In this document: positions 10 to 37,915 of the stretch, one piece after another
How the letters are laid out: every line of letters starts with the position of its first letter
Position numbering within the stretch: the first letter of the stretch is position 1
Notes under the pieces: generated by a model
What the model was told of the DNA's origin: nothing
The model's input: the letters and a program-made list of their open reading frames with translations, nothing else
Database searches by the model: none
Source: Botryococcus braunii
Lineage: Eukaryota > Chlorophyta > Trebouxiophyceae
DNA length: 64,000 nt
Reading direction: 5' to 3'
NCBI GenBank assembly: GCA_002005505.1
Contig: KV908546.1
Span: 203,922-267,921, forward strand
Made by a program: the position numbers and the translations under genes

Positions 10-727
10 TTATACTGACCTAGTGCCGGATACATCTCTCGGCTCTGACAGATTTAGTATAGCTGCAACATTGTCAGGATCTGGACGTAAGCAACCATCC
101 CCAACCACGTGTCCCAATGTCTTCAAATACTTAGCACCAAAAATGCACTTGGGCCGTATGAGTTTGATTTTGTGCAAGGCAAGCTTCTCAAATGTGTCTC
201 TAATATGTTTTACGTGCTGTTCCCAAGTTTCGGAAAACACATGTACATCATCTAAGTAAGCATGAGAAAATGAGGAGGAGCCTAACACATTATCCATCAG
301 CCTTTGGAATGTACTGGATGCATTTTTAAGTCCAAATGGCATTCTCAACCACTCAAACTTGTCTTCATGGGTCATAAATGTAGTGTACTTGGAATGTTCC
401 GGGTGCATAGACACTTGCCAAAAAGCAAAAGCGATATCCATGGCAGAAAAGTATTTTGCAGGGGCCATTTTACATTGCTTCAATGAGAGGCAAAGGATAA
501 GGGTCTGACACAGTACAAGCATTCAAGGGTCTGAAGTCAATAAAAAGTCTGAGTGTGCCATCTTGCTTCTTTACGATAACTGGCGTGGACACCCAAGGCG
601 ACATAGAAGGACGAATAATGCCTAACTCCAACAACATCTTCACTTCACCAGACAGGAACTCTTTTTCCTTTTCTGAATAAGTGGACATGTTACGAAATTT
701 AGAAGGTGGATAAGACTCAGGTCTTAG
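10..727 (-). pseudogene. Ty3/gypsy reverse transcriptase fragment (G0)
   Basis: Part of a Ty3/gypsy polymerase that would copy element RNA into DNA. Two minus-strand frames join into one RT: 727-470 carries the N-terminal fingers (LGIIRPSMSPWVSTPVIVKK, then a DFRPLN motif) and 522-10 carries the palm, with MPFGLKNASSTFQ and the active-site box YLDDVHVFS near 238-262. A frameshift near 470-522 separates them. Coding sense continues up to 727, where it is cut by the TGTAGCGTGCT repeat, so the upstream half lies elsewhere; the downstream half runs off the left edge. The sequence differs from the RT of G1 and G2, so this is a third gypsy lineage and probably the outermost host of the nest. Confidence 0.85.
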
Positions 728-2035
728 TGTAGCGTGCTATAGGGTACCCGTGCCCAACGGTATCCAAAATTTTTCCCGTCTAAATGGTCGAATTTTATCT
801 GGGGATAGATTCTGGGTTGTACTGCTGCGGTCAGTTACTGTTTTAAAGGTACGTCTGGACAGGATCGCCACCCAGGGATTACGGCCCTGAGACCTAGCTG
901 TTACGGTGTGACAAATGTATTACGGTCCGGGGAAAGGCTCCGGGTTGCGGGTTCGGCTTTCGCCGGCTTGTTCGGGTCGGTCGGACTATTTTAGTCGGTG
1001 AGGCGCGCGGCTACCTAGCTGTGCGGCTACGGTTGAGAGGAATTAAACAATGGCGTCTTTCACGGTTCTGTTATTACTAAAACTATATTTGGCGAGCTTA
1101 CAAGGCTATTCAAGGATGTATCTATTCTTCCTTGGCTCGAGGGCTTGGGACGATTGTTCCCTACGGCTTGGGTGCGTGGCACTGAACGTGCGGCTTGATC
1201 TAGGTGGTGATGCTTCACCTATGTGTAGGTTACGACTAGGGCCATTGACAAATCTCCTTGGAAATGTTTGGACTTACTTGTTCGTGCGGGTGTTGCTTTG
1301 GTACTCTACCGGGGTACTACGGCTCCTTGGTACGTACGGTATGTTAATGCTTCAACGTTGCTTTACTGTGTATTACTCTGAATTACTATCACAAGTTCAG
1401 TATTTGAAACAATTATGCAGGTATCACTGCAGGTGTTGCTCAGGTGGAACTCGGTTGAACCTCGGATCTGGTAAGACTCAAACACACTAACGAGGCGTGG
1501 CCCGGACAGGAGGCAGAATTTGTGGCAAACCTTTTACAACCATTGTTTCTGGAATCTCACTGTAACTGTGAGGGGGAGGCATCCCTCTTTATATAGACAA
1601 CCGGCGCTTTCACATACATACCGGCGTAGCTCTCACGCAGCTAACTTTTTAGAATATATCAGAAGCGGTCTTGAACGGCTTAGAATTGCCAAATCATCAA
1701 TCTTTAGGTTCCAGTATGTTCGTTCAGGATCCAAAGGTATATACAGGTGTGTACCGATCGCTACATGGGCCCACGACTTGAAGGTACCCATGGGAAGGTA
1801 AATCAATGCAACTGAAGCTACTGTCAACTTCCGGCTATACTCCCCAAACGGGACTTCCTGAGGGTCCTAATTGGCCTTGGACGGGGCCAGAATTCAGGAG
1901 CCACAGGGCAAAAGGTCTTGCCCATTTTCTAGGTCTTATTCCCCAATGGGATGAAGATGTACCATCACAATTTCCACTCGATTCCGAGCTGTCAAATGTC
2001 TTCCTTTCGTCGGCATCTTATTTCCACTGATATTG
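728..2035. repeat. LTR-like tandem unit, copy 1
   Basis: About 1.31 kb, starting TGTAGCGTGCT and repeated head-to-tail by the next unit with scattered substitutions and a few small indels. It has no recognisable protein domain; the short open frames inside are conserved only because the DNA is repeated. A TATATAGA stretch near 1590 and CA-terminated ends (read on minus) resemble an LTR. It interrupts the G0 RT at 727. No similar sequence is visible at the other end of G1, so I cannot prove it is G1's LTR. Confidence 0.7.
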
Positions 2036-3408
2036 TGTAGCGTGCTTTATAGGGTACCCGTGCCCAACGGTATCCAAAATTTTTCCCGTCTAAATGGGTC
2101 GATTTTTATCTGGGTTTTGAGTCTGGGTTGTACTGCTGCGGTCAATTACTGTTAAAGGTACGTCTGGACAGGATCGCCACCCAGGGATTACGGCCCTGAG
2201 ACCTAGCTGTTACGGTGTGACAATTGATTTACGGTCCGGGGGAAGGCTCCGGATTGCGGATTCGGCTTGTCGGCTTGTTTCGGGTTGGCCGGACTATTTT
2301 AGTCGGTAGGGCGTGCGGCTACCTAGTGGTGTGGTCGCGGTTCGTGTGGACTTAAACAATTGCGTCTTTCAAGGTTCTGTTATTACTAAAACTATATTTG
2401 GCGAGCTTATAAGGCTATTCAAGGATGTATCTATTCTTCCTTGGCTCGAGGGCTTGGGACGATTGTTCCCTACGGCTTGGGTGCGTGGCACTGAACGTGC
2501 GGCTTGATCTAGGTGGTGATGCTTCACCTATGTGTAGGTTACGACTAGGGCCATTGACAAATCTCCTTGGAAATGTTTGGACTTACTTGTTCGTGCGGGT
2601 GTTGCTTTGGTACTCTACCGGGGTACTACGGCTCCTTGGTACGTACGGTATGTTAATGCTTAAATGTTGCTTTACTGTGTATTACTCTGAATTGCTATCA
2701 CAAGTTCAGTATTTGAAACAATTATGTAGGTATCACTGCAGGTGTTGCTCAGGTGGAACTCGGTTGATCCTCGGATCTGGTAAGACTCAAACACACTAAC
2801 GAGGCGTGGCCCGGACAGGAGGCATGAACTTGGGGGCGAACTCTTACAACCAGCCAATTTTCGAACTCACTGTAACTGTGAGGGGGAGGCATCCCTCTTT
2901 ATATAGACAACCGGCGCTTTCATGTGCATACCGGCGTAGCTCTCACGCAGTTAACTTTTTAGAATATATCAGAAGCGGTCTTGAACGGCTTAGAATTGCC
3001 AAATCATCAATCTTTAGGTTCAGGTACATCCGTCGGCATCTATCGGTAGGTGCCTTTAAGTGCCGATCACTTCCATGGGGCGACACCACACAGCACCCAC
3101 GAGAAGGTAAATCTATTCAGTCTGAAGCCAATGTCTACTTCTGGCTGTACTCCCTAACACGGGACTTCCTGAGGGTCCTAATTGGTCTTGAAAGGGACCA
3201 GAATCGGGAGCCTACAGGGTAAAAGGTCGCCAAATTTCTAGGTCTTATTCACCAATGGGATGAAGTTGTACCATCACAATTTCCACTCGATTCCTAGCTG
3301 TCAAATGTCTCTCTTTCGCCGGCATCATATTTCTACCGGTTTCGCATCATAAACACAACAATTATTGATTGTCCACTTGCAGTCACAGCCACACGCCATT
3401 TCACGACA
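2036..3408. repeat. LTR-like tandem unit, copy 2
   Basis: Second copy of the 728-2035 unit, again opening TGTAGCGTGCT; a third TGTAGCGTGCT stands at 3411. The last ~70 bases before 3408 are unique to this copy. Read on minus, the pair would begin TGTCGTGAAATGG at 3408 and end GCTACA at 728, just beyond the C14 tract, where the 3' LTR of the minus-strand element G1 is expected. It is then either a long LTR with an internal duplication or two tandem LTRs. Confidence 0.65.
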
Positions 3409-3672: not shown

Positions 3673-4165
3673 TTAACGGCGGTCGTGATGGTACTTTCCA
3701 ATAGTGTGGATGGATTCCCTCCACATCTTTCCTTTAGAATTTTGGATAACAAGCGTGCTGTCGTCGTAGTACTCCTTGAAGATGAAGGGGCCCACAAAGG
3801 GTGGGGCCAACTTGTGCTTCTTTCGATTTTTGACGGCTATTAAGTCTCCAGGCTGTAGGTTACGTAGCCCTTCTTCAATCTCTCGTCCACGCTTGGTGGG
3901 CTTCAGCTTCTGAGCGTATTCTCTTTTCTGGCGCTCTTGGGCGCGCATAATGTTGGTGTGGGCGGCTGCTATCTCCTCTTGATGTCTCTCGCGGGGGCAA
4001 CTTCCTTCCCCGCCTGCAATGTCTGGCGTGGTGCTTGGTAAGGTCTTGTTGTCGATAGGTAGGGTGGCTGCTCTTCCGTACAACAACCGGAAGGGGCTGT
4101 GCTTGGTGAAACCCTGGGGACTCGTCCGGTACCCCAGAAGAATGTCAGGGAGCTTGCGGTCCCAT
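3673..4165 (-). pseudogene. G1 integrase C-terminal part (split by C1)
   Basis: C-terminal third of a Ty3/gypsy integrase. It starts at the insertion junction (WDRKLPDILLGYRTSPQ) and runs through the GPQ/GPF-type DNA-binding region (LAPPFVGPFIFKEYYDD) to a stop at 3673. The frame is continuous with 12407-13997 once C1 and one CCCAT copy are removed (codon start 12407, next codon start 4158). No chromodomain follows; in this element the histone-binding module is a PHD finger upstream of the integrase. The 4166-4281 part of the open frame is C1 LTR sequence, not integrase. Confidence 0.88.
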
Positions 4166-4651
4166 TGTTGTGTATTAGTTGGAGGATGCCGTAACTGTAA
4201 GCGGTACGTATGCCGTAGGAGAATCACTTCCTGTGAACACCACCAAGTAATCTCAATGTCTATATAGACCAGTGCTCGCACTGCCGTCTATATCTGCCGA
4301 CTGCTCTCCGATCAGGACACCCTTGGCCCTTCAGCAGTCCCAGGAGTTTAATGGCTACTCCCAACCAATCGCTATAACCAGTGTGCAACTCGTCACACAC
4401 AAATAGCCTTACTGTTCGCACAACAGTAACATACAAGCAATGCAGCTCCTGTATTGAAATGAATGTGACAGCAGTATATCAAGCAGTCCTTCAATACAGA
4501 GCAAACACTATTCAGCTTGGAGCTCGAAGCCCAGATGCATTCCACACCCCATCGACTCGTTACAAATGGTTTACGTATATTTACCTGTGAACACCACCAA
4601 GTAATCTCAATGTCTATATAGACCAGTGCTCGCACTGCCGTCTATATCTGC

Positions 4652-4755
4652 CTGCATCCGAGCGTTACGATTTACTTGTGGGTTCATCAGTGTCCATAAA
4701 ATATATCTAAACCACATAAAACACACACGCAACCTATCCACATATGTGTACGTAC
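4652..4755 (-). other. Intron in C1 LTR cassette (third)
   Basis: 104-bp GT-AG interval on minus, donor GTCG|GTACGT and acceptor GATGCAG|GCAG. It is absent from the second cassette copy, where the flanking exons are joined exactly. Confidence 0.9.
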
Positions 4756-4827
4756 CGACTGCTCTCCGATCAGGACACCCTTGGCCCTTCAGCAGTCCCA
4801 GGAGTTTAATGGCTACTCCCAACCAAT

Positions 4828-4913
4828 CTGCACAATATGTGGATCATCAGAGATCAAAACAAAACAGTTATTTAACCAGCAGGAGCATGCTTGTTATACG
4901 TATCTGTACTCAC
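4828..4913 (-). other. Intron in C1 LTR cassette (second)
   Basis: 86-bp GT-AG interval on minus, donor TAGCG|GTGAGT and acceptor TGTGCAG|ATTGG. It is precisely missing in the copy at 4231-4557. Confidence 0.9.
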
Positions 4914-4992
4914 CGCTATAACCAGTGTGCAACTCGTCACACACAAATAGCCTTACTGTTCGCACAACAGTAACATACAAGCAATGCAGCTC

Positions 4993-5115
4993 CTGCAACA
5001 CAAGACACATGTAATGTTTCATAATCAGCAGAAACATCAGTATGCATGTGCTTAACGCCTACGATCGCAGCCACACGACTGCGACCGTTACCCTTGCCAG
5101 CGATCGCAAGCTTAC
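4993..5115 (-). other. Intron in C1 LTR cassette (first)
   Basis: 123-bp GT-AG interval on minus, donor ATACAG|GTAAGC and acceptor TTGCAG|GAGC. It is precisely missing in the copy at 4231-4557. Confidence 0.9.
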
Positions 5116-5669
5116 CTGTATTGAAATGAATGTGACAGCAGTATATCAAGCAGTCCTTCAATACAGAGCAAACACTATTCAGCTTGGAGCTCGAAGCCCA
5201 GATGCATTCCACACCCCATCGACTGCCAAGCTTGCTCGCGATCTGGCGTTTCTATGCCTTCTGATCGTAACCGGCGGTAACGGTACAGTTCCTTTCGAGA
5301 GGCTGTACCGTACTGCATGGTCACATAAACAACCCTGACTTGGCCCTATGCCAACGTGTAGCTCTATAGCTGCACCAGGGATCTCATACTTATACACGCG
5401 TACACACTCAATGGAGTCTTTACCTTGTGACCTTACCGTCACTAGTACAAGACCTGTACTGCATGGAGGTCACTTATATGATCAACCTAACTGAACATAA
5501 TACAATACCCTTTGACACGCAATCAGGCGCATCTTCTTACTTGTACTCCACACGTGGAGAAATTCAAGTTATACAATGTTTCCTAGAACCACTTGATAAA
5601 CTGATAGCGCCCCTGTATCTTGTACGTTTGCCATCACGTATCTATACGTACCTATCAGTTTATACAACA

Positions 5670-5813
5670 ATCTTCCCCTTTTAGAAAACATGTATAATGT
5701 CGTTCATTAATGTTGAGTTCAATTGTTCCCATTAACGCACTACTCTTCCGAGCCAAACTTAGAATCTTAGAAGCCCTAAAGCCCTAAAGCCCTAGAACTT
5801 CAACACTCTAGGC
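5670..5813 (-). promoter_or_regulatory. C1 3' UTR and polypurine tract
   Basis: On minus, AAAAGGGGAAGAT (5670-5682) directly precedes the 3' LTR and is the expected plus-strand primer. The rest is a short UTR after the gag-pol stop. It contains about 2.5 copies of an 8-mer, CCCTAAAG (5773-5795), that resembles plant or algal telomere repeats. Confidence 0.85.
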
Positions 5814-8800
5814 TTAACCCATTCTCAAGCTGTCACGATGCTTGAGAAATGCTGGACTGGCCAACGGCTTTGTAAAAATGTCAGCCACATTTTCCTCTGT
5901 GTTGACGTACACCGGCGTGATCTGCCCCCATGCTACCTTTTCCCTCGCTTGATGATAGCACACGCTAACATGCTTGGTGTACTTGGACAATACATGGTTT
6001 TGCAGATTTGCAATACAGCCCATGTTGTCCATTCTTAATTCTACACCAGACACAGACTGACCGAGCTCCTCCAACAAGCTCCCAAGCCATACTCCTTCCT
6101 TTATTGCATGGCTGGCCGCAATAAACTCCGCCTCGACATTGGAAGTAGCAACTGACTGTTGCTTCTTACTTCCCCACGACACTGCTCCCCCATTCAGCAT
6201 GAACACGAAACCAGTTGTTGATTTTCGCGTATCAACATCTCCCGCAAAATCTGAATCTACAAAGCCAGCCAGACTTTGCTTCCCCTTTCCCCCATAAACC
6301 AAACCCATCTCCTTGGTGCCCAACAGGTATCTCACAATCCTCAACCCTGCACGCATGTGTGCAGTGGTTGGGGCAGCACGGTAACGTGCCAGCAGGCTTA
6401 CTGCCTGTGAAATATCAGGACGAGTGGTATTGGCCAGGTACTGCAGTGACCCTACGAGTTCCAGGTACCGGTGTCCGTCCGGTAGTGGAGACCCTGAACC
6501 CGCACTCTCATCCCCCACCTTCCCTTGTGGAAGCTCTGTCTGCACAAAGCTTTTACACATGGGTGTGCTCACTCCCTTGTCACTCTCACTCACTCCAAAT
6601 GACTCCGCAAGATCCTTGATCTTCTGAGTGTTGGAAATCACTATCACTCCCCCATCGCGATCGCGCCTGACTTCACTTCCGAGGAAGTTCTTCACTTCCC
6701 CCAAGTCGTGAACCTTAAATCTTGCTTTCAACTCACCCTTGATTTCTGACACTCTCTCACCACTCTTGCAGATGATCAGCAAATCATCCACATAGGTAAC
6801 AATGAACGCCCGGTCTTCACCCCTTCCGGAGTCCAAGAATAAGGCCGGGTCGCTCCTACATGCCTTGAAACCCATCTCTCCAAGATCCTTGGAGAGCCTT
6901 TTGTGCCATGCCCGAGGTGCCTGCTTGAGTCCATACAAAGCCTTCCTCAAGCGAAACACCTCCTTTTTATCACCATTAGAGAAACCAGGAGGCTGCGTTA
7001 CATACACCTCCTCCTCTAATTCTCCATTGAGAAATGCCGTCTTGATATCCACTTGGTGGATTTCAAGATTTTCTGTTGCTGCAATATTCAGCAACACTCT
7101 CCTACATGCATGGGTGCTGACAGGTGCAAAGGTTTGATCACAATCTATACCTTCTACCTGCCTGCAACCTTGCGCTACGAGTCTTGCCTTAAACCGGATG
7201 ACATCGCCATATTCATCCGTCTTTAAGGCAAACACCCAAATCAGAGGAATCACTTTTGCTCCCTCTGGCCTCCTCACCACCTCATACGTGTCACATTCTT
7301 CAATAGCATCTAGCTCCTCTTGCATGGCTTGCTTCCAGTACTCCTTTTGAGGACTGGCAAGCGCTTCTCCAATGTGTTTTGGAATGGACAACTCTGATGC
7401 TTTCAATTTTGCCTCCTCAACTACTACTGCATGGGCTTTTACTTGCGTGTGATATGCCCCAGGAACATACTTATCTGGCGGGCCAACTCTCTCTCTCAAT
7501 TCGTAACGCCCACCACCTCTTCCCCTCTCTGCATTCTCCTCATTATCATGCTGCTCTTCGTCTCTCTCACTTGCCTGCCCTTGACTTTCACCATCACCAT
7601 TTCCCTCACCAGTCACTTCCCCGGCTGGAAGTTCTGCAGGAAGCTGCTGCAGCACCTCCCGTGCACGCCTCATGACTTCATGCATATCGTCCGTTCGTAA
7701 TTCCGGGTTTATCGCAATTTCGCGTGGGGCATCAATTGCCTCTTCCAGGGAAACCTCAGGTACCTCCTCTTCATCATGAAACAACTCTTCAACCCTCATT
7801 TCAGGTTGTAGTGTGGGTGGAGTTACAACCGGATAGCCCAACTCATCTTCAATAAATCTCACATCCTTACTCACCATTACCTTGCCTTGCACCAGGATCC
7901 GATACGCCTTGGATCCTGTTTCATATCCCACAAACATGCCCGCAACTGAGCGCGGACCAAGTGCTGACAGCTGCCTATCAGGCAGCTTCACATAAGCCAA
8001 ACAACCCCAAACCTTCAGGTGAGCAACTGAGGGTTTCTTGCCATAGAATGCCTCATACGGACAAGACTCCTTTCCACTGACGGCACTCACATTCAGCAGT
8101 CGTACCACAGTGTGTGCTGCCTCAGCCCATAGTTCAGGCCCTGCCTCTGCTGTGAAGAGGAGAGCCCTCACTCGTTCCTTGATTACCCTGTTTACACGCT
8201 CTACCTTGCCATTTTGTTGAGGCGTGTACGGTGCAGAGGTCTGATGCGCGATCCCCTTTCTGGCAAAGAAATCTGCCAGCTCGCGATTTACAAATTCAGT
8301 ACCTCTGTCCGTCCTAACAGTGCCAACTTTACATTTAGTTGACACCTCCCAATTCAAGAGGACCTCTTGAACGAGTGCTCCTACCTCAGTCTTTGAACTG
8401 AACGTCCTGATTTGGATTCTATGCGAGAAGTCGTCCAAAAGGACCAGCATATACTTCTCTCCATTCAGCCCAGCCACAGGCAGCTCTCCCACTACGTCCA
8501 TATGGACCAGCTGAAGTCTCTCAGTAGACTCAGCCGCAGTGGAGGAAGGCGTGGGAGTCCTAGTCTGCTTCCCCCGTATACAACCGTCACAGTGAGTCAC
8601 AACTCTTTCTGCTTCACCCACACTTCCTTTAACCTCATTCACAATCTGCTCTCTCAACATTCTTGACATGCATACAACTCCCGGATGTCCCAACCTTTTG
8701 TGCCACAACTCTGTCTCTTCTCGTGTAGTTACTAAAAGTGCAGCCGCCCCTCCCCATGCACAGAGCCCACTTTTGTGTGACAGGAAGTATAAGCTCCCTT

Positions 8801-10106
8801 TCGGTTCAATGTCACACATGAACTCATTTGCTTGGCACATGACAGCCACATATTCCCCTTTTTCATTTACAGAGAATGTGCATCCATCTTTGACAGCAGC
8901 TGACACGGACAAGAGGTTATCAGTCGCTGTCGGGACATACTCAACATGTGTAAGCAACACACTTCCCCCACCTTGCACAGATAGACACACATTTCCCTGT
9001 GCCTTTCGCAATCCTTGACCATCACTCGCTGCCAGTCCCAGTGGTTTGGCTTCATCATAAACAATGACATTGGACATTAAATGCAAATCATTGCATATAT
9101 GGTTAGTAGCACCCGTGTCAACAATCCACTGCCCTTCCCCAGTGTTTTGTAACTTTGAGGATGCCATCCCTGCCCTTGGATTTACCTCTTCTCCAGTGGG
9201 TGGGTTACCTCGGTTAGGAGGGTGCACAAGTCTTGGGCAGTTCACTTTAATGTGCCCCCTCTCACCACACTCATAGCATGTCCGATTATCGTTCCTGACA
9301 GCCGGACCCGGCTTGCGGACAACAGCCGCCCTTGGAGCCCTTGGTTGCTGATCATTGAAACCAATGGTTTCTGCAACCACCCTTACAGCAGCCAAGGTTT
9401 GGTTAATATTGCATGTAGCAGTGGAAGAAGATAAACTTGGTTTATGAGCATCAAACTGGTACGGAAGGCACTTCAGGATTGACTTCTTGAGTTTTGTTTG
9501 CGTTACTGGCATGTTGTTATCGTTCAGTCTTTTTGCCAGCAGCTCTTTCCTAGCCACATATTCTTCCAACGTGCCCTCATTCCCCATTATTTCACTGTCC
9601 AACAGCTCCAGCCATTGGTCATTGATTTCCAAGTTTGCTCCCCCTTGGAACTGGCTCATAATCCATTTAAATGCCACTGCTGCAGATTCAGCAAATGCCA
9701 CCTTCTGAGCCCACACTTCTGGAACCTTTTGCAGCAACAAATGCAGTGCCACTGCATCCCCTTTAGTCCCCGGCATGGACGTTTTTAGGCATTCCAGCAC
9801 ATTCCTGCTCACGGCACAATGGAACACAATTTGTTTCCAGATGTCCAACGAAAAACCCAGTCTATCTAAGGAGGTGGTGACCTGCAGACTGGAGTTCACT
9901 GGACTCGTCGGATCTTCCCGGCCAGATGTACTGGCCGGTTCAGATCCCCTAGCCACTGCTGTTCCAACTCCTGAATCTCTTCCCATGTCAGTCGCTGTAA
10001 CCCCATCACTGGTTCCAGCCACCCCCGTGAGATCCCCTCGTAGGTCTGGAAGTAATCCGGATGGAGCCGCAACGGATTGAGTCCCAGCTCCTCCACCTCC
10101 CTCCAT
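5814..10106 (-). CDS. C1 gag-pol polyprotein (Ty1/copia)
   Basis: Open frame of 1,430 residues with the full copia order. Gag capsid region (about 75-250); CCHC zinc knuckle CYECGERGHIKVNC (~277, at 9240-9285); aspartic protease WIVDTGATNH (~328); pre-integrase zinc domain with LWHKRLGHPG and CDGCIRGKQ; integrase core with D, TDRGTEF and NGKVERVNR (DDE intact); reverse transcriptase with DIKTAFLNGEL, LYGLKQAPRAWH and YVDD (near 6785-6796); RNase H with DNMGC and a C-terminal ADIFTKPL block. The Met at 10106 lies in a part that overlaps the accessory ORF in another frame by 211 bp. The stop/start junction seen in relative C2 (TGAgcATG) has been lost here, so the true start, or a frameshift fusion, is uncertain. 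The enzymatic part looks intact and potentially active. Confidence 0.95.
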   Translation of the reverse strand: MEGGGGAGTQSVAAPSGLLPDLRGDLTGVAGTSDGVTATDMGRDSGVGTAVARGSEPASTSGREDPTSPVNSSLQVTTSLDRLGFSLDIWKQIVFHCAVSRNVLECLKTSMPGTKGDAVALHLLLQKVPEVWAQKVAFAESAAVAFKWIMSQFQGGANLEINDQWLELLDSEIMGNEGTLEEYVARKELLAKRLNDNNMPVTQTKLKKSILKCLPYQFDAHKPSLSSSTATCNINQTLAAVRVVAETIGFNDQQPRAPRAAVVRKPGPAVRNDNRTCYECGERGHIKVNCPRLVHPPNRGNPPTGEEVNPRAGMASSKLQNTGEGQWIVDTGATNHICNDLHLMSNVIVYDEAKPLGLAASDGQGLRKAQGNVCLSVQGGGSVLLTHVEYVPTATDNLLSVSAAVKDGCTFSVNEKGEYVAVMCQANEFMCDIEPKGSLYFLSHKSGLCAWGGAAALLVTTREETELWHKRLGHPGVVCMSRMLREQIVNEVKGSVGEAERVVTHCDGCIRGKQTRTPTPSSTAAESTERLQLVHMDVVGELPVAGLNGEKYMLVLLDDFSHRIQIRTFSSKTEVGALVQEVLLNWEVSTKCKVGTVRTDRGTEFVNRELADFFARKGIAHQTSAPYTPQQNGKVERVNRVIKERVRALLFTAEAGPELWAEAAHTVVRLLNVSAVSGKESCPYEAFYGKKPSVAHLKVWGCLAYVKLPDRQLSALGPRSVAGMFVGYETGSKAYRILVQGKVMVSKDVRFIEDELGYPVVTPPTLQPEMRVEELFHDEEEVPEVSLEEAIDAPREIAINPELRTDDMHEVMRRAREVLQQLPAELPAGEVTGEGNGDGESQGQASERDEEQHDNEENAERGRGGGRYELRERVGPPDKYVPGAYHTQVKAHAVVVEEAKLKASELSIPKHIGEALASPQKEYWKQAMQEELDAIEECDTYEVVRRPEGAKVIPLIWVFALKTDEYGDVIRFKARLVAQGCRQVEGIDCDQTFAPVSTHACRRVLLNIAATENLEIHQVDIKTAFLNGELEEEVYVTQPPGFSNGDKKEVFRLRKALYGLKQAPRAWHKRLSKDLGEMGFKACRSDPALFLDSGRGEDRAFIVTYVDDLLIICKSGERVSEIKGELKARFKVHDLGEVKNFLGSEVRRDRDGGVIVISNTQKIKDLAESFGVSESDKGVSTPMCKSFVQTELPQGKVGDESAGSGSPLPDGHRYLELVGSLQYLANTTRPDISQAVSLLARYRAAPTTAHMRAGLRIVRYLLGTKEMGLVYGGKGKQSLAGFVDSDFAGDVDTRKSTTGFVFMLNGGAVSWGSKKQQSVATSNVEAEFIAASHAIKEGVWLGSLLEELGQSVSGVELRMDNMGCIANLQNHVLSKYTKHVSVCYHQAREKVAWGQITPVYVNTEENVADIFTKPLASPAFLKHRDSLRMG

Positions 10107-10876
10107 GATGGCAGTCGGTCAAATACTGCCTTACTCTGCCCTTGGTGTAAACGAAACTGGAACTGTACCAGCTCGATATACACGTGGTATTCTCTGTACC
10201 ACCTGAGTACCTGTCCTGTACCCTCTCTTCCCTCAACAATAGCTCTGTCGAGAAAGAACGAAGGAAAACCTTCCCGTGGCCCGTCTGCAGTTAGCTTAAA
10301 TAACTCCTGCAAACGGTTCCACACTTTCAGAAAATAGTGCACCTCCCAGTCTTCTTTTGGAAGGCTCTTCCCGTATAGCTCTGCTACCTCATGCACCAGG
10401 CTATCAGCAAGGGGATCACTGAACACAATCAATTCCTCCCACTTGACCAAAATGGGCTCCTCTCGTGGCTGTGTCAGACCAGCCAAGAATGCCGTTGATA
10501 TGATTCCTTCACACAGAGCGGACCCTTCTTCACTTTCACAAGTCTTAACAAAGATGTAGTTTGCTCGTTCAACAGGATCAGGAAGATTGTTCAGCACAAT
10601 GTCTTGGTGATGCACAATTGGCCTTTGAAATTGACCCTTTGGAACACCAGGCCTCTCAATATGAATATACAGACCCGGGTCTCCAAAATAGTCAGGAACT
10701 TTAAAGTGAGTCCTGACAAAAGGAATGGGATACTCTGAGTATTCCGGTCTTCTTGGATGCTGTTGACGTACTGCAGGTCGCAGTCCTCTTCCTCTCGTTG
10801 TTGGGAAAGGTCTCGGCGTCCGTTGCTCTTCAGGTTCCGGTGTATCTTCGATCACAATGACTTCCTCCTCTGGCAT
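9896..10876 (-). CDS. C1 accessory ORF upstream of gag, unknown family
   Basis: 326-residue protein of unknown function encoded between the 5' LTR and gag. It is not a known copia domain. It is clearly homologous to the ORF at the same place in C2 (17558-18417); shared blocks include PGLY, an IVHHQDI-x-L-x-NLP-x-PV stretch followed by RANYIFV, KWEEL, LPKEDWE-x-HYFL and FDRLPSW. The N terminus is acidic, then Arg/Pro-rich. I see no signal peptide, membrane segment, zinc site or nuclease motif. Conservation between two diverged elements argues for selection. In C2 the ORF ends just before gag; here the equivalent stop is lost and it reads 211 bp into gag. A structural, nucleic-acid-binding or host-interaction role is possible, but nothing in the sequence decides it. 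Confidence 0.8.
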   Translation of the reverse strand: MPEEEVIVIEDTPEPEEQRTPRPFPTTRGRGLRPAVRQQHPRRPEYSEYPIPFVRTHFKVPDYFGDPGLYIHIERPGVPKGQFQRPIVHHQDIVLNNLPDPVERANYIFVKTCESEEGSALCEGIISTAFLAGLTQPREEPILVKWEELIVFSDPLADSLVHEVAELYGKSLPKEDWEVHYFLKVWNRLQELFKLTADGPREGFPSFFLDRAIVEGREGTGQVLRWYREYHVYIELVQFQFRLHQGQSKAVFDRLPSWREVEELGLNPLRLHPDYFQTYEGISRGWLEPVMGLQRLTWEEIQELEQQWLGDLNRPVHLAGKIRRVQ

Positions 10877-10887
10877 GCAGCAAGTTG

Positions 10888-10900
10888 TGGGCCCAGCACC
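10888..10900 (-). promoter_or_regulatory. C1 primer-binding site (variant)
   Basis: On minus, 2 nt after the 5' LTR, GGTGCTGGGCCCA. The other copia elements have GGTTATGGGCCCA here, complementary to the anticodon arm of initiator tRNA-Met. C1 differs at two bases that fall on the anticodon side. This is either decay or a switch to a tRNA with another anticodon. Confidence 0.6.
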
Positions 10901-10902
10901 TT

Positions 10903-12406
10903 TGTTGTGTATTAGTTGGAGGATGCCGTAACTGTAAGCGGTACGTATGCCGTAGGAGAATCACTTCCTGTGAACACCACCAAGTAATCTCAATGTCTAT
11001 ATAGACCAGTGCTCGCACTGCCGTCTATATCTGCCGACTGCTCTCCGATCAGGACACCCTTGGCCCTTCAGCAGTCCCAGGAGTTTAATGGCTACTCCCA
11101 ACCAATCGCTATAACCAGTGTGCAACTCGTCACACACAAATAGCCTTACTGTTCGCACAACAGTAACATACAAGCAATGCAGCTCCTGTATTGAAATGAA
11201 TGTGACAGCAGTATATCAAGCAGTCCTTCAATACAGAGCAAACACTATTCAGCTTGGAGCTCGAAGCCCAGATGCATTCCACACCCCATCGACTCGTTAC
11301 AAATGGTTTACGTATATTTACCTGTGAACACCACCAAGTAATCTCAATGTCTATATAGACCAGTGCTCGCACTGCCGTCTATATCTGCCTGCATCCGAGC
11401 GTTACGATTTACTTGTGGGTTCATCAGTGTCCATAAAATATATCTAAACCACATAAAACACACACGCAACCTATCCACATATGTGTACGTACCGACTGCT
11501 CTCCGATCAGGACACCCTTGGCCCTTCAGCAGTCCCAGGAGTTTAATGGCTACTCCCAACCAATCTGCACAATATGTGGATCATCAGAGATCAAAACAAA
11601 ACAGTTATTTAACCAGCAGGAGCATGCTTGTTATACGTATCTGTACTCACCGCTATAACCAGTGTGCAACTCGTCACACACAAATAGCCTTACTGTTCGC
11701 ACAACAGTAACATACAAGCAATGCAGCTCCTGCAACACAAGACACATGTAATGTTTCATAATCAGCAGAAACATCAGTATGCATGTGCTTAACGCCTACG
11801 ATCGCAGCCACACGACTGCGACCGTTACCCTTGCCAGCGATCGCAAGCTTACCTGTATTGAAATGAATGTGACAGCAGTATATCAAGCAGTCCTTCAATA
11901 CAGAGCAAACACTATTCAGCTTGGAGCTCGAAGCCCAGATGCATTCCACACCCCATCGACTGCCAAGCTTGCTCGCGATCTGGCGTTTCTATGCCTTCTG
12001 ATCGTAACCGGCGGTAACGGTACAGTTCCTTTCGAGAGGCTGTACCGTACTGCATGGTCACATAAACAACCCTGACTTGGCCCTATGCCAACGTGTAGCT
12101 CTATAGCTGCACCAGGGATCTCATACTTATACACGCGTACACACTCAATGGAGTCTTTACCTTGTGACCTTACCGTCACTAGTACAAGACCTGTACTGCA
12201 TGGAGGTCACTTATATGATCAACCTAACTGAACATAATACAATACCCTTTGACACGCAATCAGGCGCATCTTCTTACTTGTACTCCACACGTGGAGAAAC
12301 TCAAGTTATACAATGTTTCCTAAAACCACTTGATAAACTGATAGCGCCCCTGTATCTTGTACGTTTGCCATCACGTATCTATACGTACCTATCAGTTTAT
12401 ACAACA
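10903..12406 (-). repeat. C1 5' LTR
   Basis: Near-identical partner of 4166-5669 (offset 6,737). It carries the same cassette: introns 11389-11492, 11565-11650 and 11730-11852; spliced copy 10968-11294. The TSD CCCAT follows at 12407-12411. It should act as promoter and leader of C1. Confidence 0.95.
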
Positions 12407-13997
12407 CCCATGCTCCAGGGCTTTCAAGGGCGGCTTGCCCGAGCTTCTCTTTCAAAGTGCCATGAAACCTCTTGACGAGGCCGTTGGCTTGTGGATGGTA
12501 TGGGCTGGTCTTTCTTACTTCTATGAAGCATTGGTCCATTAATGTCTGGAATTCTCCTTGCCATTCCTGGCCATTGTCCGTAATAACAATCTGGGGGCAG
12601 CCGTGCCGTGCCAGAATCTCTTCTTTGAAAAATTTTGCGGTAGTCGATGCCTCTTTGTTTGGGATAATCTTGGCCTCCACCCATTTGGTGAGGTAGTCTA
12701 TGGCGGTGGCAATGTACACTTTCTCTCGCCCCGAGGGCGCATCCATGGGTCCTGTCAGGTCCACTCCAATCATATCGAGGACCCCCGTGACGGCTACGGG
12801 AGTCAGCTCCACCGGCTTGGTGAGCTGAATGGTCCTGTATTGACATCCAGGGCAATGCTGGATGTATATTTTGACGTCGAGGGACATATCTGTCCAGTAA
12901 AAGCGCTCCTTGACAAGATGAATTGTACGGTTAATTCCGTAGTGGCCCATGTCGTCGTGTAGCTCCTTAATGATGTCAAGTCTGTCCTCGTACCATGGTA
13001 CGGTACGTGGGCCAAATCCTCTTGTGGCCTTTCGTACAAGTGGCCAGTTGCGAGTCCTCCATTCAATAGGGAATTCTTCGGCGGCAAAGTAGTAGTTCTG
13101 GGCCCGGCGTGCTATTCGCTTAGCATCCTTGCGGCTTGTCCCAGGTCGGTGTCGTTTGTCGGCGGCTAGGTAGTCAAGTACTTCTTCATCGTCCACAATG
13201 TCACGAGTGGGGACGGCATCTGCAATCTGGTCACATAAAGGGCATAGCCAGGGTCCCCTGGGTACCCGGACCAGTGCAGGCTCCAAACAGTCGATGTGGT
13301 ATCCGTGGTCGCAGAGGTCACATAGTAGCATGGTCTCCTCATCATCTCTTCCCGTGCATACTTGGCACGGTACATCCTCCATAAGCGGCGGGCTGTCAAA
13401 ACGCGTACGCGGTGTAGTCATAGGTTCTTGGCTGGCCAGGGCGGCAGAACGGCCAGATAAAGTCTCTGTAGACGGTGGCAGGTCATAAATCGGTGTTGAT
13501 ACAATTCTCATCTCCGGAAGGTAGTCCCTGGAAGGAAGTGCATCATCCTCCGGGGTCATCATGCGGCGTAGGGTTGGTGAAGTTATTATCTCTCCACGCT
13601 GAGTGGTCTCGTACGCGGGTGGCTGGTAAGGCTGGTCCAGGTCCAATGTGTCTTTGGCGGGCGGCATATTTTCCTTGTCCAAGGTCATGGTGTAGCAGCA
13701 GTGCATGTGGTTCTCCTCAATAATTTCTTTTTCTTGCGGCGGCGGCGGCGGCGGCTCTTCACTGTAGTCTTCACCAGGGGGTGGCTGTAGGCGTAGACGA
13801 GAAAGGCAGTCCACATTCCCATGCAAGGTCCCCGAGCGGTGCTGGATGTCAAAGTCATATTCTTGTAGTTCGATGGCGTATCGTGCTAGCTTGCCGGACA
13901 AATGCGTGTGGTGAGTAACAACTTTAAAGCTTTGTGGTCTGTTACTATAGTAAATTGAACTCCATAGAGGTAGGGGCGGAATAGCTTCACGGCCCAC
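12407..13997 (-). pseudogene. G1 pol: RNase H end, PHD finger, integrase core
   Basis: Minus-strand frame holding the RNase H tail, a Pro-rich linker, a canonical C4HC3 PHD finger (about 13228-13378; CQVC, then CDLCDHGYHIDC, then WLCPLC), the HHCC zinc site of integrase (HYGINRT, HCPGCQ) and the catalytic core (GVDLTG, ITDNGQEW, PYHPQANG). PHD fingers read the H3 N-terminal tail in host proteins; in a gypsy pol this could steer integration. The usual catalytic Glu is Lys (LVKRFHG, codon AAG), so the enzyme should be dead. A frameshift near 13905 separates it from the RT/RNase H frame. C1 interrupts it at 12407 and it resumes at 4160. Confidence 0.9.
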
Positions 13998-15589
13998 ACT
14001 ATGGCAAGCAGCTCCCCATCCGTTGGAGAGTAGTTGAGCTCTGCTCCTTGTAAAGTTTTGCTGGCGTAGGCGATCACATGGTCACCATCCTCGAGCTCCT
14101 GGCCCAGAATAGCAGCGGCGGCTCCGGGCTGCCAATCAGTATATAGCGTGAATTTCTTGCTGAAGTCGGGGTATCGTAGAAGCGGCGCATCCACTAGCAT
14201 GGCCTTGATGGCTTCGAAGGCGGCTTGGCAGTCAGTGGTCCAGTTGAAAACAACCCCCTTTCTCGTGAGCCGCGTCAAAGGGGCAGATATGGCGGCCATG
14301 TTGTGCAGAAATCTCCTGTAGTAGTTTGCAAGTCCCAAAAAGGACCTGACTTCGGTAACGTTCGTCGGCGGTGCTGCGTTGAGTACTGCCTCAACCTTGG
14401 AAGGGTTGGGCTTTATGCCTTGGGGCGTAATAATGTATCCTAAGTAGAACACTTCACTGCAACATAACTCACACTTGGCTGGGTTGGCTCTAAAGCCCAC
14501 CGCACGGAAGCGTTCAAGCACTAATTTCAGATGTGTGAGGTGGTCCTCAAATGTGCGGCTGTATATCAAACAGTCATCTAGATAAATGACACAACACTTT
14601 CCTATTAAGTCTTGCAACAGAGTGTTAACAAATCTCTGAAGCGTAGCCGGGGCGTTACGCAAGCCGAACGGCATTGATACAAACTCGAATAAACCTTCTT
14701 TGGTAGTAAAAGCGGTTTTTGCACGGTCCTCTGGGGCTACTGGTATCAACCAGAAGGCTGACTTGCAATCTATCTTACTCAAGTATTCCACCCCCTGACC
14801 TAAGGAATCTAGGGTCTCATCTATCCTAGGCATGGGGTAATTGTCCCGTCTGGTAACTGCATTCAACGGACGGTAGTCAATACAAAACCGGACAGAGCCA
14901 TCCGGCTTGCCTACTAACACAGGCGAACTAGACCAAGGAGAGCTGGAAGGCACTATCACTCCAGCCTCTAGCATTTTGTGAACTTCTTCCTCGATCACCT
15001 GATCCTCCGAACGGGACAAGCGATAAGGGCGTGTTTTAATGGGGATCGCATCCCCAGTGTCTATGCGGTGGTGCATTAAGGTGGTTCTTTCTTGTACTAT
15101 ACCTGGGGTATATACATCCTTGTACTCCTGTACTAATCTCTCAATCTCTTGTTCTCTCATAGGACCCAATTTTCGCATCCCGGTGGTGATTTTTAACATG
15201 GGATCGGGGTCCTGTTTCATCTTTTCAGTATTTATTATCTCTCTCAACTTCTGCATACCAGGATCTTCCTTCCTAAGGGAGGTGGGGACACGAACAATTA
15301 TGACAGGCCATCTGGTAGGGCCATAACGACGTCGCGGACCTGCAGGGTCCTCTCCCGGGGCTGTGAAAAGCTGCACACCAGGAGGGTATTGTTTGATGAT
15401 CTCAAATTGCTCCATTACTGTAGGAAACCAAGGGGCAGAAGGCCACCATGGTAGCACAAGTAGTGCACTATTGGTAAAGGGACTACTGGTGAAACACGCG
15501 AGACAGTGATTCACAACTCTGTCAATTATCGAAAAAGGTGGATTGCAAATACATGTATACTCAAATGGGTCCAGCTCTGCTGTAAACAA
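13886..15589 (-). pseudogene. G1 pol: MTase C-terminal part, RT and RNase H
   Basis: 567-residue frame. Its first ~60 residues complete the methyltransferase-like domain begun in the preceding frame (CNPPFSIID, LLVLPWWPSAPWF). Then comes a Ty3/gypsy RT (CIDYRPLN, PFGLRNAPATLQ, YLDDCLIYS at about 14568-14590) and RNase H (TLYTDWQPG, where D is retained; YASKTL; DGELLAIVWAVK; TDHKAL). Frameshifts at both ends (near 15560 and 13905) break the polyprotein. RT and RNase H motifs are otherwise preserved, so the decay is fairly recent. Confidence 0.9.
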
Positions 15590-16192: not shown

Positions 16193-17521
16193 TGTTGTGT
16201 CTTGGGAGAGATATAACATAAGGTACGGATCTGCTTGTGCGGAGATACGTATACGTAAGTATGGGAGCTCTCTCTCGTTCACACCATTGGTTTTGGACAC
16301 GTCACATAAAGTGAATAGAGGGACATATGATGTGAAAAGAAAAACGCCTGCATCAGGACACAAAAATTGCCGTTATATACTAGGAGACCTGGAGAGAAAG
16401 TTCTCCGTGGGTGACATGAGTTCATAGCCTATCACGCAAGTACAGATCTCAGTCAGTGAAGTTCAAAGAACCATGATGGAGATCCTATTGTGAGTGTACA
16501 CGTGTAGGACAGGTGTATAAGTTACAGCATAAGTCTGTACTTCGTGGGTGTGACAAGTGTACTTCACACACTTAGGATGTGATGATAAAGTACACTTGTC
16601 AGCGGTGATCTGCGATTGTGCATAATGCACGATCAGGCTAGGAGGGGCAGGTCGGCAGCGTGGTCCTCAGACAGTTGGAACTTCATCTTTGAGTTGCCTG
16701 GAGTCCTTTGAGTGTGAACACTAGAGGACCTGTCTGAGACCTGCCGGAGTATTGCTCTCACTGATATCATGCTATACTTGTGCATGTGGGCTGCGTGAGA
16801 GAATATCGGTAAAACTCGGTTAGAGCATCGGCAGTGCTTGGTACATGATAAAACATAAGTGTTAATGAGTGCCATTTAGTTGTGAAGACTGAATAACATT
16901 CAGTACTGTGCAGGAGGTTGTTGTTTTCTGTCTTTTGAGACAGTGCGAGCTGCATAAGTGTAAGTGTATACACGTGTGGGCAGCGGTAAGAACACCTCCT
17001 GATAAAACTTGTACATTGATGGAAGACATTGTGTTGTTTAGTTACTGGTGTAAGTATGATACTGATAGAGAGCAATGTACGTGACTCGTACAGGTGGTCA
17101 GTTACGAGGACGACGTCATAACTGATGCGAATGCTTGAGTATGTGACAGATACTTACGGTTGCGAACATGTAATAAACAACACCATGTAAAGAGACAGTT
17201 GGATCTTCATCTTTGAGTTGCCTGGAGTCCTTTGAGTGTGAACACTAAAAGACCTGTCTAAGACCTGCCGGAGTATTGCTCTCACTGATATCATGCTATA
17301 CTTGTGCATGTGGGCTGCGTGAGAGAATATCGGAGGTTGTTGTTTTCTGTCTTTTGAGACAGTGCGAGCTGCATAAGTGTAAGTGTATACACGTGTGGGC
17401 AGCGGTGGTCAGTTACGAGGACGACGTCATAACTGATGCGAATGCTTGAGTATGTGACGGATACTTACGGTTGCGAACAGGTGCTTATTCTACAAATACG
17501 GACATCAACTCCAACACAACA
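16193..17521 (+). repeat. C2 5' LTR with unspliced and spliced cassette
   Basis: First cassette copy: exons 16669-16808, 16914-16985 and 17094-17169; introns 16809-16913 (GTAAAA...GTGCAG) and 16986-17093 (GTAAGA...TACAG). A final donor, GTAATAAAC, starts at 17170. AATAAA (17172-17177) and TGTAA (17186-17190) precede the second copy, 17193-17480, which is exactly 140+72+76 = 288 bp with both introns missing. U5 tail 17481-17521. CATAAGGTAC at 16217-16226 in U3. Confidence 0.95.
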
Positions 17522-17524
17522 ATA

Positions 17525-17537
17525 GGTTATGGGGCCC
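17525..17537 (+). promoter_or_regulatory. C2 primer-binding site and upstream AUG
   Basis: GGTTATGGGGCCC, 3 nt after the LTR, matches the anticodon arm complement of initiator tRNA-Met with one extra G. Its ATG (17529) opens a 23-codon upstream ORF ending at 17600, which overlaps the accessory ORF start in another frame. Confidence 0.75.
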
Positions 17538-17557
17538 GCTGCAATCTCCAATGGAGC

Positions 17558-22695: not shown

Positions 22696-24024
22696 TGTTG
22701 TGTCTTGGGAGCGAGATAACATAAGGTACGGATCTGCTTGTGCGGAGATACGTATACGTAAGTATGGGAGCTCTCTCTCGTTCACACCATTGGTTTTGGA
22801 CACGTCACATAAAGTGAATAGAGGGACATATGATGTGAAAAGAAAAACGCCTGCATCAGGACACAAAAATTGCCGTTATATACTAGGAGACCTGGAGAGA
22901 AAGTTCTCCGTGGGTGACATGAGTTCATAGCCTATCACGCAAGTACAGATCTCAGTCAGGGAAGTTCAAAGAACCATGATGGAGATCCTATTGTGAGTGT
23001 ACACGTGTAGGACAGGTGTATAAGTTACAGCATAAGTCTGTACTTCGTGGGTGTGACAAGTGTACTTCACACACTTAGGATGTGGTGATAAAGTACACTT
23101 GTCAGCGGTGATCTGCGATTGTGCATAACGCACGATCAGGCTAGGAGGGGCAGGTCAGCAGCGTGGTCCTCAGACAGTTGGAACTTCATCTTTGAGTTGC
23201 CTGGAGTCCTTTGAGTGTGAACACTAAAGGACCTGTCTGAGACCTGCCGGAGTATTGCTCTCACTGATATCATGCTATACTTGTGCATGTGGGCTGCGTG
23301 AGAGAATATCCGTAAGACTCGGTTAGAGCATCGGCAGTGCTTGGTACATGATAAAACATAAGTGTTAATGAGTGCCATTTAGTTGTGAAGACTGAATAAC
23401 ATTCAGTACTGTGCAGGAGGTTGTTGTTTTCTGTCTTTTGAGACAGTGCGAGCTGCATAAGTGTAAGTGTATACACGTGTGGGCAGCGGTAAGAACACCT
23501 CCTGATGAAACTTGTATATTGATGGAAGACATTGTGTTGTTTAGTTACTGGTGTAAGTATGATACTGATAGAGAGCAATGTACGTGACTCGTACAGGTGG
23601 TCAGGTACGAGGACGACGTCATAACTGATGCGAATGCTTGAGTATGTGACAGATACTTACGGTTGCGAACAGGTAATAAACAACACCATGTAAAGAGACA
23701 GTTGGAACTTCATCTTTGAGTTGCCTGGAGTCCTTTGAGTGTGAACACTAAAGGACCTGTCTGAGACCTGCCGGAGTATTGCTCTCACTGATATCATGCT
23801 ATACTTGTGCATGTGGGCTGCGTGAGAGAATATCGGAGGTTGTTGTTTTCTGTCTTTTGAGACAGTGCGAGCTGCATAAGTGTAAGTGTATACACGTGTG
23901 GGCAGCGGTGGTCAGTTACGAGGACGACGTCATAACTGATGCGAATGCTTGAGTATGTGACAGATACTTACGGTTGCGAACAGGTGCTTATTCTACAAAT
24001 ACGGACATCAACTCCAACACAACA
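22696..24024 (+). repeat. C2 3' LTR
   Basis: Partner of 16193-17521 (offset 6,503). Cassette copy 1 begins at 23172; spliced copy 2 is 23696-23983. Here the donor after exon 3 reads CAG|GTAATAAAC (the 5' LTR has CAT|GT). The two LTRs have drifted independently, yet in both the second copy lacks exactly the same introns. CATAAGGTAC at 22720-22729. Confidence 0.95.
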
Positions 24025-32743: not shown

Positions 32744-32957
<214 letters not shown>

Positions 32958-33193
32958 AGTGGGTCCACACATATTACCATCCTTAGCACCACAACAACCA
33001 TATCACCATGACCATCACCCTCACCACACCAGGAACATCACCACCGACCTCCCTATCACCAGTACCATGACTATCCCATGCCCCAAAATTATTCCCATGA
33101 CCTTCAGCATGATCTTCTCCATAAATATCACCATCAGCATCCATCTCCATATCCCCCTGTATTTGTATATTCCCATGAATATCAGCATCCATC

Positions 33194-37439: not shown

Positions 37440-37915
37440 TGTCGTAGAATGCACAAGTTAGGGAGAATTTCCAAGTTGTGAGAGAGAGAGAGACAAGGCC
37501 GGATGGCCGACAAGTTGGACGCTCTTTCCAATTACAAGTAACCCCCACCTCACGGAGCTTCCACTCCCTACTTGTGGTCTACTAAGCTTCCAAATTACCT
37601 GAGTGCGTGTCTTCCCGTGGCTTACGTCTCTATCCGTTCCTTCCCGTGGTTCGTGATCGTGTGTTCACGTTCCTCCAATGGTAGCGCACTAGTCCACCAA
37701 ACCTCTACAATAGTATCTAGAAAATATCCTAGAATCCTACTATGAGAGTAACGTCCATAACTATCCAATGGAATTCGACGGCTAGGAAGCCAAGGCTAGA
37801 CGCTAGGCACGTGCGTACTCGCGTTGCTCGTACGACATGTGCGCCACATGTGCGCCTAGGCTAGGGGGTAAGGGAAATGTCCAGAAATGCCGGGAAATCC
37901 CTACATTCCATCACA
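37440..37915 (-). repeat. G2 3' LTR
   Basis: 476 bp, apparently identical to 51441-51916. Preceded on minus by AAGGGGGGATGA (37916-37927), the polypurine tract. It lacks the duplicated cassette seen in the copia LTRs. Confidence 0.96.

Follow-up and report, generated by a model that had tools for sequence, protein, structure and literature searches.

Reverse transcription normally erases introns, and an LTR element that carries introns in its transcribed leader should therefore lose them within one cycle. The general expectation for an LTR, which is not a taxonomic criterion, is a single U3-R-U5 unit with one copy of the leader. In the foamy virus, a 5' splice site lies upstream of the poly(A) signal, and U1 at this site suppresses polyadenylation in the 5' LTR (PMC3694450, partial text). 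Here we describe a Ty1/copia element, C1, within a 64,000-nucleotide stretch of the Botryococcus braunii genome (the window, to whose first base all positions refer). Each of its LTRs contains an intron-bearing leader, termed copy 1, followed by a spliced version of the same leader, termed copy 2. The layout, the splice signals, variants shared between the copies, a chimeric LTR, single-copy LTRs and variability at one junction were all observed directly in the DNA. Based on these observations, we propose that the genomic RNA of such copia elements is very probably spliced inside its own 5' LTR in every round, an event that would remove an intron with the poly(A) signal and rebuild copy 2. The features of C1 are listed here, with the slash in a motif marking an exon boundary.

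4166-12406, minus strand: complete Ty1/copia element C1 (from LTRs and flanks)
4161-12411, minus strand: C1 with its 5-bp target-site duplication CCCAT at 4161-4165 and 12407-12411 (from flanks)
10903-12406, minus strand: 5' LTR, TGTTG...CAACA (from LTR comparison)
4166-5669, minus strand: 3' LTR, 99.8% identical to the 5' LTR (from LTR comparison)
5116-5224, also 11853-11961, minus strand: copy 1 exon 1, 109 bp, its first base being the putative transcription start (from sequence)
4993-5115, minus strand: intron 1, 123 bp, GTAAGC..TTGCAG (from copy alignment)
4914-4992, minus strand: copy 1 exon 2, 79 bp (from copy alignment)
4828-4913, minus strand: intron 2, 86 bp, GTGAGT..GTGCAG (from copy alignment)
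4756-4827, minus strand: copy 1 exon 3, 72 bp (from copy alignment)
4652-4755, minus strand: intron 3, 104 bp, GTACGT..ATGCAG (from copy alignment)
4585-4651, minus strand: copy 1 exon 4, 67 bp, with the end CACAG/GTAAAT (from copy alignment)
4231-4584, also 10968-11321, minus strand: implied intron 4, 354 bp, GTAAAT...TCACAG, made up of the spacer and the whole of copy 2 (from sequence)
4558-4584, minus strand: 27-bp spacer, within intron 4
4560-4564, minus strand: TGTAA, the chlorophyte poly(A) signal (PMC1868727, partial text), 2 nt before copy 2 (from sequence)
4231-4557, also 10968-11294, minus strand: copy 2, the spliced leader, 327 bp (from LTR self-match and alignment)
4166-4230, minus strand: exon 5 or distal U5, 65 bp to the LTR end (from sequence)
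5814-10106, minus strand: pol ORF, 1430 aa, with zf-CCHC, gag_pre-integrs, rve, SH3_retrovirus and RVT_2 (Pfam domains)
9896-10876, minus strand: ORF in the gag position, no Pfam match (from ORF and Pfam search)
12306-15589: gypsy-type pol ORFs adjoining C1 (from ORF and domain reading)

Its two LTRs show 3 differences over 1508 aligned bases, and one of these is located just beyond the true LTR end, which marks C1 as a young element. Each LTR is built in the order U3 (445 bp), E1-i1-E2-i2-E3-i3-E4, spacer (27 bp), copy 2 (327 bp) and a final 65 bp. Within the pol ORF, rve (529-629) precedes RVT_2 (939-1184), which is the copia order, and the best named relatives of the protein come from two chlorophytes, Micractinium conductrix and Tetradesmus obliquus, with land plants and other groups next in order; together with TGTAA, these relatives point to a chlorophyte host. 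When viral contigs were scanned with the C1 pol protein, two stretches fitted a pattern and none was confirmed. A search for PF00494 gave no more than 5 exon-level matches, confined to 2 places, and an rbcL model had no match. With regard to the surroundings of the element, two tandem 1.3-kb units that are 90% alike (727-3336) lie just upstream of it, and the gypsy-type pol fragment on its other side (12306-13997, minus strand) has a PHD finger (PF00628) adjacent to the integrase domain.

A first-pass annotation of this DNA had reported that exons of 109, 79, 72 and 67 bp, separated by introns of 123, 86 and 104 bp with GT-AG ends, recur fused as a 327-bp block, and that the same cassette is present in both C1 LTRs (4231-5224 and 10968-11961). 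Both observations hold at these positions, and the alignment gave 0 mismatches over 327 bases. The exon matches between copy 1 and copy 2 are 100% over 69-110 bp, with E values of 1.7e-30 to 9.5e-53 that exclude chance, and no intron was present twice in a self-comparison of the LTR. What had been missed at that stage was a fourth donor and acceptor, as well as the generality of the layout across copia families and the anatomy of TATA box, start and poly(A) signal. The fourth donor directly follows copy 1 (CACAG/GTAAAT), and copy 2 ends in CACAG/GAAGTG; this donor and the CAG end of copy 2 together imply a fourth intron of 354 bp. If all four introns were removed from a transcript starting at exon 1, exons 1 to 4 followed by GAAGTG would be exactly copy 2 plus U5. 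The second half of the LTR, in other words, corresponds to the 5' end that its predicted spliced RNA would have.

The signals at the 5' end of such an RNA were read by eye. Copy 1 begins with an A that is preceded by a C (C/A) in eight of eight families, with the repeat in families C and F beginning one base (C) before the A taken as the start. A TATA-like box is located about 28-32 bp before copy 1 in six of these eight families (C1, C, D, F, G and H), a clear TATA box was not found in families A and B, and the check covered eight of nine families, leaving out D'. In C1, the box reads CATAGAAA, at about -32 of copy 1, and is combined with the C/A initiator. For the 3' end, UGUAA has been described as the poly(A) signal in chlorophytes other than Pyramimonas, with a peak at -17 from the cleavage site (PMC1868727, partial text). 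It is enriched 10-20 nt upstream in Chlamydomonas, where intron-located poly(A) sites without UGUAA were reported (PMC4701671, partial text). Given the TGTAA beside copy 2 and the UGUAA peak at -17, cleavage would fall no further than ~10-15 nt into copy 2 and R would be very short, with copy 2 holding this short R (its first ~10-15 nt) and the start of U5. We infer the transcription start, the cleavage site, the short R and splicing itself from these sequence signals.

The last exon would have to become the next acceptor and hence would need an AG end. It ends in AG in 9 of 9 families, compared to 1 of 5 among the internal exons of C1 and A (Fisher p = 0.005), and when C, D and D' are counted once, this becomes 7 of 7 (p of about 0.01, calculated by hand). 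That the leader serves an RNA structure is not supported, as folding was not notably stable (z of +0.2 to -2.4 in seven families, 60 shuffles each).

The two-copy layout is found in five copia families of the window, namely, C1, A, B, C and D; the features of the last four are as follows.

16193-17521, plus strand: family A 5' LTR, same layout; partner LTR at 22696-24024
16669-17169, plus strand: family A copy 1, with E1 16669-16808, i1 16809-16913, E2 16914-16985, i2 16986-17093 and E3 17094-17169
17193-17480, plus strand: family A copy 2, in the LTR at 16193-17521
40516-41209, plus strand: family B LTR, same layout; partner at 46834-47527
40719-40852, plus strand: family B copy 1, followed by an implied intron, 40853-41180, that includes copy 2 (41047-41180)
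55010-55701, plus strand: family C LTR, same layout; partner at 61192-61883
55214-55354, plus strand: family C copy 1, followed by an implied intron, 55355-55675, that includes copy 2 (55535-55675)
35601-36074, minus strand: family D LTR core; a second, cut-off copy at 63526-64000
35930-36074, minus strand: family D copy 1, followed by an implied intron, 35601-35929, that includes copy 2 (35601-35745)

The assembly searched comprises 176 Mb in 989 contigs. Further copia elements were sampled from it by their reverse transcriptase, a choice independent of the LTR, and the 3' regions of 15 elements were fetched, from 40 listed out of 150 scored matches of 2658 candidates. The layout is present in 13 of these 15, which adds families D', F, G and H; the repeat ends of D' (masked bases) and H (a mismatch) were set by reading the fetched 3' regions. 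Of the remaining two, L090 has no repeat in the stretch fetched and L102 has a single leader copy. In all nine families, copy 1 ends in CAG/GT, copy 2 ends in CAG, and TGTAA is located at most 5 nt from copy 2. The nine leaders form seven groups without detectable similarity (blastn, E 0.01), with C, D and D' being related to each other and the other six standing alone. Internal leader introns number three in C1 and two in A, and there are none in B, C, D, F, G and H. TGTAA is altered in a few copies: the LTR at 55010 has TGTGA, a change that its partner lacks, and L078 and L081 have TGTAG. A gypsy-type LTR (37440-37915), the one checked as a control, has no internal repeat of at least 20 bp.

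At least 40 C1 cassettes are present genome-wide (the best 40 of 199 candidates were scored), and 45 rows of A-family matches, some of them partial, came from the best 40 of 123 candidates scored. The LTRs of B and C are very numerous, with 1476 and 880 first-look candidates, respectively; the 40 scored for each are almost identical. The huge amplification of families B (40516-47527) and C (55010-61883) suggests very recent activity. Elsewhere in the window, a minisatellite (33184-34282) with ~82-bp units and higher-order periods of 166 and 409 adjoins a 208-bp TC run (32747-32954).

The site after the LTR was likewise compared by eye. It is GGTTATGGGCCCAC-like in B (41210-41224) and C (55702-55716) and similar in A (17522-17540), and in these three families we take it to resemble the anticodon arm of the initiator tRNA. 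The corresponding site of C1 (10880-10902) reads GGTGCTGGGCCCAC, and a group of C1 LTRs represented by L017 has GGTCATGGGCCCAC at this place. Half-tRNA priming occurs in fly copia, and it is possible that the primer tRNA changed between subfamilies.

To assess how constant the layout is, leader copies and introns were counted over all 40 C1 loci and over A loci L049-L078. In all 70 LTRs (40 C1 and 30 A), exon 1 occurs exactly twice and each intron a single time, and none of the 70 has the conventional single U3-R-U5 with one leader copy. They are the best of the 199 C1 and 123 A candidates, 40 scored for each, and were picked by similarity to two-copy LTRs, so that the full layout is favored in this count and other forms are undersampled. 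The 40 C1 LTRs represent ~25 insertions, LTR pairs being assigned by contig and position and L046/L047, which are on different contigs, being counted as one insertion; each contains the leader twice and a single set of three introns. All eight GT/AG dinucleotides are intact in 37 of them, and the other three each lack one acceptor dinucleotide. With regard to the possibility, raised in the first-pass annotation, that copy 2 of sister LTRs might lack other segments, 40 of 40 C1 and 30 of 30 A LTRs follow the one pattern. In the LTRs counted, the half that would derive from the RNA 5' end has lost its introns, and the half that would derive from the 3' end has kept them. Without removal of the spacer and copy 2, the LTR should gain a unit in each cycle.

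It is conceivable that splicing is real and yet incidental, serving gag expression or the control of translation from subgenomic RNAs, and that the replicated RNA is a minor spliced species. Retroviruses do use leader splice donors for subgenomic RNAs. In the foamy virus, R contains a donor that precedes the poly(A) signal (PMC3694450, partial text). However, appreciable replication of unspliced RNA should give rise to LTRs with three copies or with an intron in copy 2, and such LTRs amounted to 0 of 70 in a set chosen by two-copy similarity; we consider this explanation very improbable.

If splicing in each round is instead part of replication, as we propose, the two copies should carry the same variants. 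Among the 40 C1 LTRs, variants found in several insertions occupy both copies of the same LTRs (sites 35, 172, 308 and 319 of the 327, in 8, 4, 25 and 7 LTRs, respectively), and variants present in one copy are private to a single LTR or to LTRs treated as one insertion. In the element C174 (L043/L045), both LTRs have six variants in copy 2 alone, two of which (sites 95 and 172) recur in other insertions, as if its copy 2 were derived from another RNA. For family A, 30 loci and the two window LTRs were compared, leaving out L079-L086 (8 of 38), which are single copy or partial. Within 30 of these 32 LTRs, the copies differ at 0-7 of ~286 positions, and there are two subfamilies that are 26-33 differences apart. 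One LTR, L068, is a chimera, with copy 1 belonging to one subfamily and copy 2 showing 0 differences from another; the switch occurs at the boundary between the spacer and copy 2. In L067, the copies have 29 differences, a divergence that is not explained by splicing and probably reflects decay or recombination. Since shared variants sit in both copies, copy 2 appears to have been remade from spliced RNA and to be renewed in each retrotransposition cycle rather than passively inherited. The derivation of copy 2 from spliced RNA, as put forward in the first-pass annotation, is thus supported by the concerted variants, by the chimera and by the junction variability described below; rather than one duplication in a single LTR family, the data indicate renewal per cycle in nine copia LTR families, with the implied fourth intron, which includes copy 2, as the central element.

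The same data bear on the possibility that a one-off, misdirected strand transfer in an ancestor set a spliced leader behind an intron-bearing one and that the pair has been inherited passively since then. An end-to-end transfer is a plausible origin, and the layout is indeed constant in the C1 LTRs read. Nevertheless, passive copies should diverge independently, whereas shared variants sit in both copies and subfamilies 26-33 differences apart retain near-identical twins. Moreover, nine families in seven groups with unrelated leaders each have matching twins, and a passive model predicts that the LTR grows with each cycle unless the intron is spliced. Taken together, this makes a one-off transfer followed by passive inheritance very improbable, and renewal of copy 2 from spliced RNA remains our preferred reading.

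Older insertions were also inspected, in 11 loci. Seven older copies (L109-L115) are ~71-85% identical to family A and, by segment, ~77-99% identical between their own copies, mostly >90%, a pattern compatible with decay following insertion. In L113, exon 2 departs from this, with 76.5% identity to its twin and 76.3% to family A. Of the other four loci, L116 has two copies and is ~90% identical to A, L117 and L119 are single copy, and L118 has one exon-1 match, with no second copy seen. Two further irregularities are of note. In seven C1 LTRs (L017, L018, L027, L028, L029, L035 and L036), U3 is ~11% and U5 is ~29% off C1, and the introns and leaders differ by at most ~1.3%; these mosaics appear to have arisen when subfamilies recombined, the breakpoints falling close to the transcription start and to where copy 2 ends. 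L054 and L062 (C427) are A LTRs separated by 6.5 kb, the spacing of a single element, and yet they clearly differ in both exon 3 and the junction, possibly due to conversion or two insertions.

Single-copy intron-less LTRs do exist, namely, in the C20 element, C236 (L117), C210 (L119, truncated) and L102. Both LTRs of the C20 element are single copy; they have 8 mismatches and 3 gap positions between them and are flanked by the target-site duplication GTGGA. A search with a single-copy LTR gave 3 single-copy A-family insertions among the best 40 of 123 candidates. Such LTRs would be produced if strong-stop DNA paired with copy 1, which would leave one intron-less leader and no TGTAA intron.

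The nucleotides between the poly(A) signal and copy 2 also vary. In C1, those after TGTAA differ between insertions (CG, TG, CC, TC, G or C), and in family A, those after TGTAAA are G, T, C, none, ATG, AGA, AGT, AGG and others. Both LTRs of an element have the same junction in 12 of 12 pattern-matched C1 pairs and in 7 of 9 A pairs, the A pairs C162 and C427 being those that disagree. The pattern missed 5 of the 40 C1 loci (L027, L028, L029, L035 and L036, which have a 2-nt insertion); these were read from the alignment instead, and two further C1 pairs read in this way also agree. A ranking of columns by variability gave weak support, in that the C1 junction column is multi-allelic and is not the most variable column; it used 19 of the 40 C1 LTRs as a core after paired, divergent and two odd LTRs were dropped, and the A core was dominated by columns past the LTR end. 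Previous work on MMLV reverse transcriptase described the addition of untemplated nucleotides depending on the capped RNA 5' end (PMC6885630, partial text), and a strand transfer at the junction would leave a scar of untemplated additions. The chimera, the single-copy LTRs and the variable junction nucleotides all fit a first-strand transfer at the junction between the spacer and copy 2.

These junction data also speak to an origin at the DNA level, in which an intron-less leader was duplicated in tandem, introns later entered copy 1, and DNA gene conversion has kept the copies alike. In principle, gene conversion confined to exons could homogenize the copies, and families B, C, D, F, G and H lack internal introns. 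However, this scenario predicts neither TGTAA beside copy 2 nor the C/A start and upstream TATA box at copy 1, nor does it predict CAG/GT after copy 1 in 9 of 9 families. It also does not account for a chimera that switches at the junction of spacer and copy 2, or for junction nucleotides that are common to the LTRs of an element yet vary between elements, and no intron was duplicated in the C1 LTR self-comparison. We regard such an origin as extremely improbable.

The cycle that we propose instead would run as follows. Transcription would begin with the first base of copy 1. The introns of copy 1 and the last intron, which comprises the spacer, TGTAA and all of copy 2, would be removed at the 5' end of the RNA, so that the leader is joined to U5. 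At the 3' end, the same sequences would stay unspliced, with cleavage ~12 nt after TGTAA, inside the first ~10-15 nt of copy 2, and this cleavage would make the short R. Strong-stop cDNA would then copy the spliced leader to the cap and, at the 3' end of the RNA, pair with the short R. The new LTR would thereby consist of U3, an intron-bearing copy 1 (taken from the 3' end and formally part of U3), the spacer and a fresh copy 2 (R-U5). The introns thus appear to be kept because the RNA 3' end is the template for the part that bears them, and the 5' end for the spliced part. In each cycle, the acceptor of intron 4 would be lost with the intron, and a copy of the exonic CAG of the last donor (CAG/GT) would terminate the new copy 2 and provide the AG of the next generation's acceptor; since this CAG comes from the exon side of the donor, the intron would recreate its own 3' splice site.

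One probable advantage is that the poly(A) signal, although transcribed from both LTRs, would be spliced out or silenced by U1 at the donor in the 5' copy and used only in the 3' copy. The difference between the two ends presumably has a basis in U1 or the cap. Our guess is that the proximity of exon 1 to the cap plays a part, and lack of a cap alone fails to explain why introns 2 and 3 would be retained at the 3' end. Overall, we think it probable that these elements form a lineage in which 5'-LTR splicing is obligatory for replication, in which an intron spanning U3, R and U5 carries the poly(A) signal and has its 3' splice site remade in each generation from the exon end of its own donor, and in which the spliced and unspliced fates of the two RNA ends are recorded in each new LTR.

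In the open-licence literature searched, we found no description of an LTR that combines an intron-bearing leader with its own spliced copy, which agrees with the earlier supposition that the layout is undescribed for any LTR family. The element is thus an ordinary copia by lineage, with an LTR replication plan that is undescribed as far as that literature goes. Three candidate precedents were set aside on the parts of the papers available: a lentiviral vector with an "intron in the LTR" (PMC5542766) is unrelated, and two reports on "two R regions" (PMC1950507 and PMC10886601) concern ordinary R-R template switching, the former proposing chimeric LTRs from co-packaged RNAs. The Penelope-like elements of Adineta vaga are similar in being retroelements that move intron-containing sequences (PMC3846280, partial text). 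They differ in having a GIY-YIG endonuclease and pseudo-LTRs, and the part of that report available does not report an intron-bearing and spliced pairing in one LTR.

If our reading is correct, each insertion records a splicing outcome in DNA and so provides a natural readout of position-dependent splicing. It would also constitute a new answer to the problem of avoiding polyadenylation in the 5' LTR, with the signal housed in an intron that is removed from the 5' copy alone. Furthermore, the transcription start, the cleavage region and the point of first-strand transfer would be marked in these LTRs from sequence alone.

Similar to Ty1/copia elements in general, C1 has integrase followed by RVT_2, TG..CA LTRs and a 5-bp target-site duplication; unlike them, it has two leader copies per LTR, one of which contains introns in C1 and A, and an implied RNA that is spliced in the 5' LTR. 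The foamy virus, to our knowledge, has genomic RNA that is unspliced at the site concerned and an LTR without a spliced second copy or an LTR-internal acceptor, and the pol of C1 is a copia RVT_2 rather than spumaretroviral. The resemblance to the foamy virus LTR lies in a donor placed between the putative start and the poly(A) signal, with CAG/GT and then TGTAA in nine families. U1 could suppress 5' LTR polyadenylation at these donors as well, and, beyond the signal order of the foamy virus, the elements described here could remove the poly(A) signal by splicing. Lastly, in Rous sarcoma virus and MMTV, a poly(A) signal is also located just upstream of a short R (PMC3694450, partial text); there it lies upstream of the transcription start, whereas in these copia elements it would be transcribed in both LTRs and be intronic.
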